From: Bacteroidetes bacterium ADurb.Bin302
GTDB lineage: Bacteria; Bacteroidota; Bacteroidia; Bacteroidales; Paludibacteraceae
Reading direction: 5' to 3'
Length of the DNA: 25,112 bases
Assembly: GCA_002069025.1 (NCBI GenBank)
Contig: MWBK01000052.1
Span: forward strand, 1-25,112
Shown here: positions 15,974-25,112 of the stretch, in pieces
How positions within the stretch are numbered: the first letter of the stretch is position 1
Layout of the letters: the number at the start of each line of letters is the position of its first letter
The notes under the pieces: generated by a model
The model's input: the letters and a program-made list of their open reading frames with translations, nothing else
Database searches by the model: none
What the model was told of the DNA's origin: nothing
Translations under genes and position numbers: made by a program

Positions 15974-16009
15974 AAAAAGAGCCGCATAATTTTTATGCGG
16001 CTCTTTTTG
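15974..16009. terminator. Bidirectional terminator between the Wzz-like gene and tmRNA
   Basis: AAAGAGCCGCATAA and TTATGCGGCTCTTT form a 14-bp perfect stem with a 3-nt loop, and T5 runs occur on both strands. It stops the Wzz-like gene from the left and ssrA from the right. Confidence 0.92.
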
Positions 16010-16403
16010 TGGAGCTGGAGGGTATCGAACCCTCGTCCAAACAAGGAAATAATACGCTTTCTACATGCTTATTTTGGCTTAAATTTTCGAGATGTAACAA
16101 GACCCAAACTACCAATTACATCCTTATCTTCTGTTTTTTACCTGCAACGCGAAGCCGAAGTAGGCGAGTTCTGATATTTCCGCACCTCCATGTTCAAAAA
16201 GCCTCAGAACAGCGGCATTTGGGAGATGTCTCGTTTTAGTACCTTGTACTAAAATAAAGTTAGTCTACTATAATTCGACTAAGCAGCAAGAGCGTAGTTA
16301 TTTTCGCCAGTTATAATTTTGAAAGTTCATATTATAGAGCCCACTTACAAAGCTCTGCATGCTTACATATCAGTTCTACCTGCTGTCAAATCCAGTCAAC
16401 CCC
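16010..16403 (-). ncRNA. ssrA: tmRNA (transfer-messenger RNA)
   Basis: The RNA rescues stalled ribosomes and tags the nascent peptide for proteolysis. On the minus strand the 5' end GGGGUUGACUGGAUUUGACAG and the 3' end with a TTCGATACC T-loop and CCAGCTCC close a 7-bp tRNA-like acceptor (one G-U). The tag reading frame GGC GAA AAT AAC TAC GCT CTT GCT GCT TAG (16279-16308) encodes GENNYALAA, the form seen in Bacteroidota. The length is 394 nt and the CCA is not encoded. Its own promoter lies inside the rny terminator. Open frames over this region are not proteins. Confidence 0.97.
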
Positions 16404-21838: not shown

Positions 21839-24451
21839 ATGATGACTTCTAAAGAAATACGTAAGTCCTTTTTGGACTTTTTTGCTTCAAAAGGGCATAA
21901 AATAGTTCCTTCTGCACCAATGGTAATTAAAGATGATCCTACCTTGATGTTTACCAATGCAGGTATGAATCAATTTAAAAATATCATTTTGGGTAATGAT
22001 CCAATTAAATATCCACGTATAGCTGATTCACAAAAATGTTTACGCGTAAGCGGTAAACATAATGATTTGGAAGAAGTTGGACATGATACATATCACCATA
22101 CAATGTTCGAAATGTTAGGTAACTGGAGTTTTGGTGATTATTTTAAATCAGAAGCAATTCAGTGGGCGTGGGAATATCTTACAGAAGTATTAAAATTAGA
22201 TAAGAATCGCCTATATGTAACAGTTTTTGAAGGCGCTCCTGCCGAAGGTTTGAGTAGAGATGATGAAGCTGCAAATATTTGGGCAAAATATATTGATCCA
22301 AGTCGAATAATAAACGGAAATAAACACGATAATTTCTGGGAAATGGGTGATACCGGTCCTTGTGGACCTTGCTCAGAAATACATATAGATTTACGTGAAG
22401 ATACCGAAAGAGCTAAAATTGATGGCAAAACACTTGTTAATGGCGATCATCCTCAAGTTATTGAAATTTGGAATAATGTATTCATGCAATACAACCGAAA
22501 ATCAGATGGCTCTTTAGAGGCTCTACCAAAGAAAGTTATTGATACAGGTATGGGCTTTGAACGTTTGTGTGTTGCTGTTCAAGGTAAAAAATCAAACTAC
22601 GATACAGATGTATTTATTCCTTTATTAAAGGCTGTAGGCGAATCTTGCTCCTGCGAATATGGTAAAGATAATAAGATTGATATAGCCATGCGCGTTGTCG
22701 CAGACCATATTAGAACTATATCGTTTGCAATTACAGATGGTCAACTACCTTCCAATGCAAAAGCAGGTTATGTAATACGCCGTATCCTTCGTAGAGCAGT
22801 TAGGTATGGTTATACATTCTTAAATCAACGTTCTGCATTTATGTATAAATTGGTGCCGGCTTTGATTGATAATATGGGAGAAGCTTATCCCGAACTTAAG
22901 TTACAACAAACTTTGATTGAGAAAGTTATCAAAGAAGAAGAAGATGCATTTTTACGTACTTTGGAAACCGGAATTCGTTTGTTAGATAAAGTAATGTCTG
23001 ATACAAAGAAAAACGGAAGAGATGAGATTAGCGGTGTTGATGCATTTGTACTTTATGATACTTATGGTTTTCCAATAGATTTAACCGAACTTATATTAAA
23101 GGAGAACGGATTAAAATTAAATCATAACGATTTTGATGCAGAAATGCAAAAACAAAAAGATCGTGCACGTAATGCAGCATCTATTGAAACGGGCGACTGG
23201 GTAATAATACGCGAGGGCGAAACTGCATTTGTAGGATATGATCAAACCGAAGCTGATGCACAAATTTTACGTTATAGAAAGATGGTTCAAAAAGGCAAAG
23301 AATTTTATCAAGTTGTTTTGTCTGTTACACCTTTTTATGCTGAGATGGGTGGTCAAGTTGGTGATTCAGGTGTGCTTGAAACCGAATCAGAAAAAATTCA
23401 GGTGATAGATACAAAAAAAGAAAATAATTTGCCGATTCACATATTAACCACTTTGCCAAAACAGATTGAGGCTACTTTTAAAGCTATAATCGACATTGAT
23501 AATCGTATGGCAACTGAAGCAAATCACACCGCAACTCACTTATTACATGAGGTTTTGCGCGATTTACTAGGTCAACATGTTGAGCAAAAAGGTTCTTATG
23601 TTTCTCCCGAATCATTACGTTTCGACTTCTCGCATTTCCAAAAGCTGACACCTGAAGAAATACGTAAAGTTGAACATGCAGTAAATAAGAAAATCCGTAT
23701 GAATGAGCCTTTGCACGAACGTCGCAATGTACCGATTGCAGAAGCTAAATCACTTGGTGCAATGGCATTATTTGGCGAAAAATATGGAGATAGCGTTCGT
23801 GTTATACAATATGGTTCTTCTATAGAATTATGTGGTGGAACACACGCAAAATCAACAGGTAACATAGGCATATTTAAAATAGTTTCTGAAAGTTCTATTG
23901 CAGCCGGTGTACGTCGTATTGAAGCTGTAACAGCAGAACATGCAGAGTTTTTGATAGATGATTTGCAAAATATGCAAGTATCTGTGCGCGAAATGTTTAA
24001 TAATGTACCGGATGTAGTACAAGCTGCTCAACGTACTTTGGAAGACAATACAGCACTTCGTAAAAAGATTGATATTTTTATGCAAGAAAGAGCTCTACAG
24101 ATACGTGATAATATGCTTAATAGGGCAGAACAATTTGGCGATGTTAAGCTTATTAGATATGTAGGTAATGATAATCCTGATATATTCAAAAACATTGTAC
24201 CTTATTTCAAAGGTAAATTTACAGATGTTAAGTTTGTATTTGTAGCAGGTACTGTTTATGAAGATAAACCGACATTGACCATATTATTAAGTAAGCCGAT
24301 GGTAGATGCAGGTTATAACGCAGGAAATATTATTCGTGAAGCAGCAAAATTCATTCAAGGCGGTGGCGGTGGTCAAGAGAGCTATTTGGCGTGGAACGAT
24401 AGCGTCGATTGCCGTGAGATCGGCAAGGACACGGATACGCCCCTTCGTTAG
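21839..24451 (+). CDS. alaS: Alanyl-tRNA synthetase, 3' end replaced at an assembly junction
   Basis: AlaRS charges tRNA-Ala and edits mischarged products. From ATG 21839 (or 21842) the class II catalytic core runs from [13 protein letters not shown] through the [20 protein letters not shown] motif. The editing domain carries HTATHLLH, and the second zinc half-site is [12 protein letters not shown]. The C-Ala domain begins normally and reaches [16 protein letters not shown] near residue 846. From there the protein should continue for about 25 residues (PxxATAGGK...), but instead reads 24 unrelated residues ([13 protein letters not shown]...) encoded by GC-rich DNA, then a TAG at 24449-24451. 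The genuine part is therefore 21839 to about 24376. The true chromosome surely carries an intact gene. Confidence 0.93.
24377..24451 (+). CDS. 3' end of an unidentified gene from the foreign GC-rich segment (possible)
   Basis: After the junction one frame (in phase with alaS by chance or microhomology) stays open to TAG 24449-24451. It encodes [15 protein letters not shown] and a short tail, with codons ending mostly in G or C, which fits real coding sequence of the GC-rich source. It would converge on the ligase-like gene with 21 bases between stops. The family is not recognised. Confidence 0.3.
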
Positions 24452-24472
24452 CTCAATCCGGCGTTCGCGCTG

Positions 24473-24961
24473 TCAGCCAAAGACAAAGGAATGGAGCACG
24501 CGCCATGGCTCGCCCGGCGTCTGCGCGATCAGATTGACTCCCGGAAACGTCAGCGCAATTTCTGACGGGAGTTTGTGAGCCGCATCGAGCGTGTTGCCTG
24601 GCGCGCGTGGATTTCTTGGATGCGCCAGCGTAATGTGGGGCTTCTGCGTGCCCAGCAGGCCTGCACCGAGCAATCTTTCGCGTAGTCGCATAAATTGATC
24701 TGCGCCCACGACGCAAGGCAGCAACACGCCGTGGCCGTCAAACATTATGGCGCGGCCAAACACAAGCGTAATCGGCGGCGCGCCAGCGAGCGCTTCTGTT
24801 ATGAGCGCACCAGAGAGCAACGCGGCCTCATCATCCCGGCACAGCGTGACGTGCGCCGGGATGAGCGCGTGCTGAACAGGGTCGAGCACGCGACGAACGG
24901 CGTCCAACGGCGCAGCCAAATGGTCCGGAACGTAGAGACTGATTTGGCGCCGCAGTGCCAA
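24473..24961 (-). CDS. 2'-5' RNA ligase family protein (2H phosphoesterase)
   Basis: The 2H phosphoesterase fold carries two H-x-T-L motifs: AHVTLCRDD near residue 37 and PHITLAHPRN near 112 of a 162-residue protein starting from TTG at 24961. Both histidine/threonine pairs are intact. Family members hydrolyse or ligate 2',5'-linked or cyclic phosphates on RNA; the substrate here is unknown. No ATG is available in the right place, so a TTG start three bases after the ettA stop is inferred. A longer upstream frame would overlap ettA. GC-rich codons show that it belongs to the foreign segment, not to the Bacteroidales chromosome. Confidence 0.75.
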   Translation of the reverse strand: MALRRQISLYVPDHLAAPLDAVRRVLDPVQHALIPAHVTLCRDDEAALLSGALITEALAGAPPITLVFGRAIMFDGHGVLLPCVVGADQFMRLRERLLGAGLLGTQKPHITLAHPRNPRAPGNTLDAAHKLPSEIALTFPGVNLIAQTPGEPWRVLHSFVFG

Positions 24962-24963
24962 GT

Positions 24964-25112
24964 CTAACGCCCAAACTTCTGAAACTTCACGCGGCTCGGA
25001 ATAATTTCCGTCACGCCGAGGCGGCGCATCTTGTCGGCTTCGTAGCTGTCGAAATCGCCTTCGAACCATTCTAGGTGGCTGTCGCCTTCGAAGGCGAGGA
25101 TGTGCGTGGCCA
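24964..25112 (-). CDS. ettA: C-terminus of energy-dependent translational throttle protein EttA (partial)
   Basis: The last 48 codons of an ABC-F ATPase run in from the window edge. The residues THILAFEGDSHLEWFEG, YEADKMRRLG and SRVKFQKFGR are the conserved end of EttA, which binds the ribosomal E site and gates translation by energy state. The nucleotide-binding domains lie outside the window. The 2H phosphoesterase start is 2 bases after the stop (24964-24966), suggesting an operon in the source genome. The protein reads as proteobacterial, probably alphaproteobacterial from the GC-rich codons (inference). Confidence 0.8.
   Translation of the reverse strand, partial: ATHILAFEGDSHLEWFEGDFDSYEADKMRRLGVTEIIPSRVKFQKFGR

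Follow-up and report, generated by a model that had tools for sequence, protein, structure and literature searches.

Near the right-hand end of the stretch of DNA analysed here (the window, 25.1 kb in its whole length), a gene for alanyl-tRNA synthetase (alaS) runs in one kind of DNA and is continued, shortly before its expected end, by DNA of another kind. Does this locus record the passage of DNA from one phylum to another, or have sequences of two genomes been joined by technical means? Here, we describe the gene and its relatives, the DNA on either side of the break, and the explanations that can be offered for the join. The features concerned are given by position, strand and content.

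21839..24376, + strand: codons 1-846 of alaS, from a Paludibacteraceae-like member of the Bacteroidales; the 3′ end is missing (profile TIGR00344, identity with P0001, named relatives).
24359..24376, + strand: the gene's own codons for Gly-Gly-Gly-Gly-Gly-Gln in C-Ala, next to the join on its left side (same residues in P0001).
24376..24377, no strand: putative chimeric join (end of identity with P0001 and composition break; about 2 bases uncertain).
24377..24451, + strand: 24 codons and a stop that continue the alaS frame in foreign DNA (unlike the AlaS tail; DHHA1 match cut).
24473..24961, − strand: gene for a 2H phosphoesterase (2′-5′ RNA ligase superfamily), attributed to a second organism (PF13563, E 9e-11).
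24964..25112, − strand: 3′ end of ettA, attributed to the second organism and cut by the window end (TIGR03719, positions 507-551 of 552).

The alaS gene and its missing end

The gene starts at 21839 (an ATG) or at 21842, and its product passes the cut-off of the bacterial alanyl-tRNA synthetase profile TIGR00344 (E 3e-264; 879 bits, cut-off 457). Relatives were sought among 5.8 billion proteins, and the best 120 of 7996 scored were examined. The closest of these, P0001, is an intact protein of 872 aa from the source jgi, whose longest contig measures 15,946 bases. It agrees with the window AlaS at 846 of 846 residues, compared at the protein level, starting with the initial Met and including the Gln of GGGGGQ. 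Identity ends directly after this Gln, where P0001 continues with the usual tail of 26 residues. The window sequence stays in frame through IQGGGGGQ (Gln codon at 24374-24376), after which come 24 residues that do not resemble the AlaS tail, and a TAG stop at 24449-24451. The join is placed at 24376/24377 with an uncertainty of about 2 bases, within the interval 24355..24380 assigned to it in a preliminary description of this DNA. That description was also right to read AlaS as normal up to IQGGGGGQ and to report the loss of its end, although the loss amounts to 26 residues, as measured by the P0001 tail, and not the ~25 it had estimated.

The remaining 119 of the best 120 relatives are only 76-80% identical, and for this reason P0001 probably derives from the same species or strain as the left-hand side of the window. 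The cluster of P0001 has 25 sequences at 90% identity, of which the version in the window may be one. The Gly-rich run and the 25-27 residues after it are present in 119 of the best 120 relatives (one was missed by the search expression). These 119 recognisable tails start with AFM, PFM, AFL or PFI after the Gln; the window has ESY. All 19 relative loci that were fetched likewise keep an intact tail beyond the Gly run. At the level of domains, the DHHA1 match of the window AlaS covers profile positions 8-75 of 102 and, at 18.3 bits, falls below the Pfam cut-off of 25.9, while in P0001 it covers positions 8-101 and scores 34.2 bits. The full-length C-Ala with a complete DHHA1 that marks a complete bacterial AlaS is lacking from the window protein.

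Variation of other kinds was seen among more distant relatives. Throughout the family of G640, alaS is matched in 100 of 101 genomes, with some matches split or cut and several at contig ends. Two of these genomes (contigs G759:C22 and G777:C16) carry the match in two pieces, about residues 1-456 and 460-869, in one open frame with a gap of 120 bases; the arrangement suggests an insert near the border between the aminoacylation and editing parts. In IMG/VR, five contigs listed as viral (L073-L077) match P0001 over residues 1-868, nearly the whole of AlaS, at 64% identity; this is perhaps bacterial sequence flanking proviruses.

The DNA on either side of the join

GC content, taken per 500 bases, varies from 0.27 to 0.42 along the window until the final two steps, where it rises to 0.54 and 0.62. 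Segments of 736 bases left of the join (n = 23,641, overlapping) have a mean GC of 0.343, with a standard deviation of 0.026 and a maximum of 0.405; 33 non-overlapping segments served for z and for tetranucleotides. The 736 bases to the right have a GC of 0.603, with a z of 10.4 relative to these 33. In tetranucleotides they correlate with the left at −0.274, and none of the 33 left segments falls below 0.722. Third codon positions have a GC of 0.16-0.27 (about 0.22) in the 19 genes compared on the left, and of 0.67 in the gene for the 2H protein. The abrupt turn from AT-rich to GC-rich DNA and the change to G/C-ending codons, both noted from the letters at the outset, are therefore borne out in numbers (GC 0.343 to 0.603; third positions as above), and the tetranucleotide comparison recommended there separates the two sides (−0.274 across the join, at least 0.722 within the left). 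Both GC and tetranucleotides break sharply at one point, and the foreign DNA shows no drift toward the composition of the left-hand DNA. A change-point fit to GC places its ten best positions at 24351-24361, slightly left of the join; GC is already high in the native Gly codons of that region.

The left-hand 24.4 kb looks like ordinary Bacteroidales chromosome, from the genes scanned. This reading rests on alaS, its relatives and its gene order, and on six further genes of ordinary chromosomal kind (M23 peptidase, RNase Y, GAPDH, carB, a ROK-family kinase and ribosomal protein L19). The M23 peptidase gene lies upstream of alaS and divergent from it in the window and in 16 of the 19 fetched relative loci. 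Those of the best 120 AlaS relatives that bear organism names are from Paludibacteraceae or Bacteroidales bacteria. In the nearest whole genomes found, AlaS is only 65-67% identical, which implies that the species or genus of the window is absent from the genomes sampled. A tmRNA gene (16009-16403, − strand; tag peptide GENNYALAA) is a possible further marker of the left-hand organism.

To the right of the join, the ettA piece comprises the last 48 codons of the gene with its stop at 24964-24966, and the 2H gene follows directly after. Eight of 72,556 plasmid and chromid records match the ettA end, at 78-83% DNA identity over 13% of the query; they belong to Sinorhizobium (four), Shinella, Rhizobium, Methylobacterium and Sphingomonas, all alphaproteobacterial genera, and three of these records annotate the matched stretch as ettA. 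The ettA end is also matched in 172 of 398 genomes of Pseudomonadota (the phylum of the Lysobacter genome G001); identity is 78-85% in the eight best, and the best match of all is in genome G124. By likeness of sequence, and mainly because of the eight alphaproteobacterial plasmid and chromid matches, the evidence points to an alphaproteobacterium-like donor. The preliminary description had called the genes past the join proteobacterial in appearance, and the matches of the ettA end to alphaproteobacterial replicons agree with it.

The 2H protein (P0121) keeps HVTL and HITL, presumably the two HxT motifs of the 2H family, as do the other sequences in an alignment of seven. Among the matches listed, relatives outside its own cluster are at most 71% identical. 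The cluster itself has two members and a longest contig of 1,029 bases, a maximum that would fit a thinly covered second organism. Of the 398 Pseudomonadota genomes, a single one matches P0121 (G001, the genome of Lysobacter that holds locus L003), and 200 genomes from the order of G124 gave no match; profile A2, applied to 385 genomes from the class of G124, which is taken here as Alphaproteobacteria, gave one weak partial match (E 4.7e-4). A profile scan of named species genomes returned 35 loci, the best 55% identical, with titles that include Lysobacter, Burkholderiales, Gemmatimonadetes, Bacteroidota and Planctomycetes, among others; none is titled as an alphaproteobacterium, and three (L007, L011 and L012) read just 'bacterium' or 'Proteobacteria'. 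The donor genome was found neither in these three genome sets nor in the scan of named species. Compared with the eight fetched ettA loci (3.1 kb each), P0121 gave no significant match (best E 0.65), and it had none in viral contigs. The order of ettA and then the 2H gene (24473-25112, − strand) may be uncommon, since it was seen in none of those eight loci. A phage origin of the foreign DNA was considered and set aside, as this DNA had no match in the phage record collection.

Origin of the join

The two sides differ in taxonomic origin, with Paludibacteraceae and Bacteroidales relatives of AlaS on the left and alphaproteobacterial matches of the ettA end on the right, and the correct continuation of the left side is found elsewhere, in P0001, as compared at the protein level. 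The junction is very probably a technical chimera, whether it was produced by the assembler or in the library. This is the best account because an intact and identical gene exists elsewhere, because the piece to the right is unameliorated and apparently of another phylum, and because it stands at the window end. The proposal of a chimeric join between two genomes, made from the letters alone, is upheld by the intact identical AlaS elsewhere, the sharp break in composition and the differing relatives. Sequence bearing the alaS of a Bacteroidales (Paludibacteraceae-like) bacterium would have been extended on its right by 736 bases or more of a genome resembling that of an alphaproteobacterium. 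A metagenome assembler would probably have made the join, by way of a short shared k-mer or of erroneous k-mers at low depth. Contigs of two genomes are a known product of metagenome assembly, according to passages of PMC7299287 and PMC8171044, and a passage of the former describes links in the assembly graph that can come purely from sequencing errors.

The join had been placed in repeat DNA of a kind able to mislead an assembler, which is a weak argument. It does lie close to GGCGGTGGCGGTGG, but this 14-base stretch (24359-24372) is made of the native alaS codons for the conserved Gly run and has one copy in the window; the Gly-rich run is shared by 119 of the best 120 AlaS relatives and by all 19 fetched loci. 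When 96 genomes from the class of G124 were sampled, 2 contained the 17-base extension GGCGGTGGCGGTGGTCA, with one copy in each, and 3 contained a reversed control. An overlap shared by the two genomes at the Gly-codon repeat is possible. Between 24200 and 24600 there is no repeat of 10 bases or more other than one palindrome (24499-24512), and the exact 26-base junction has no match in viral contigs, the one collection searched for it.

As a sub-case of a technical origin, ligation, PCR or whole-genome amplification could have made real chimeric molecules that the assembler then followed. It draws on the same evidence as misassembly (P0001 and the composition break) and gains from the fact that a repeat shared between the two sides could not be shown with GGCGGTGGCGGTGG, GGCGGTGGCGGTGGTCA or the repeat scan of 24200-24600. 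Where a site is well covered, on the other hand, a lone chimeric molecule seldom prevails against the correct sequence. We regard an origin in the library as unlikely and an origin in assembly as probably the likelier of the two; the biological conclusion is the same for a library chimera as for an assembler error.

The join could instead be real. Some cells of the population would then have undergone a rare event, by transfer or by illegitimate recombination, in which alphaproteobacterial DNA replaced the end of alaS and left a damaged C-Ala or was tolerated through a second intact copy. Such cells could survive: E. coli AlaRS 1-700 keeps wild-type-like aminoacylation (PMC4649089), and a natural mini-AlaRS of Tupanvirus does without C-Ala, according to part of PMC10036535. 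The loss of 26 residues need not be lethal, given the activity of AlaRS 1-700, and the preliminary argument that loss of the end of an essential gene speaks against transfer is weakened by this result (PMC4649089). Real transfer is nevertheless very improbable on other grounds. The intact allele is otherwise identical over 846 of 846 residues, and the foreign DNA has not moved toward the composition of its surroundings. The join has neither a tRNA (none was found near it in a scan of the window) nor a repeat, and the right-hand part holds no mobility gene, with one boundary visible. E. coli AlaRS, moreover, requires C-Ala for tight binding of tRNA, as stated in part of PMC10036535. The narrower case of a real Bacteroidales subpopulation, in which the end of alaS has been overwritten by alphaproteobacterial chromosomal DNA and which lives without the end of C-Ala, is a little less probable again.

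That the protein is a functional, selected variant of AlaS with a new C-terminus of 24 residues would suit the frame, in which no stop is met until 24 codons beyond the join, but is scarcely credible when those residues begin with ESY in place of the AFM, PFM, AFL or PFI of the 119 recognisable tails among the best 120 relatives, lie within foreign DNA downstream of the 2H gene, and leave DHHA1 cut at position 75 of 102. Insertion of a mobile element or genomic island was rejected, as the right-hand part consists of ettA and the 2H gene only, with no integrase or transposase and, at the one boundary visible (24200-24600), no repeats save one palindrome.

With a technical chimera as the preferred reading, the locus most likely holds no biological feature and is an artefact. 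The contig is to be split at 24376. The truncated AlaS, the ettA tail and the 2H phosphoesterase are not to be credited to the Bacteroidales genome, and the junction calls for caution against reading it as evidence of transfer across phyla.

Comparison with known systems

Set beside bacterial alanyl-tRNA synthetases (TIGR00344), the window protein has its catalytic and editing regions together with most of C-Ala, all identical to P0001, and differs in that the last 26 residues are missing and unrelated DNA stands in their place. As a member of the 2H phosphoesterase / 2′-5′ RNA ligase superfamily (PF13563), the protein to the right of the join is not unusual and serves merely to mark the foreign DNA. 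The window resembles the chimeric contigs of short-read metagenome assembly, in which the sequence of two genomes is found in a single contig (passages of PMC7299287 and PMC8171044). The same passages stress stretches common to related species, whereas the partners joined in the window are apparently of different phyla.
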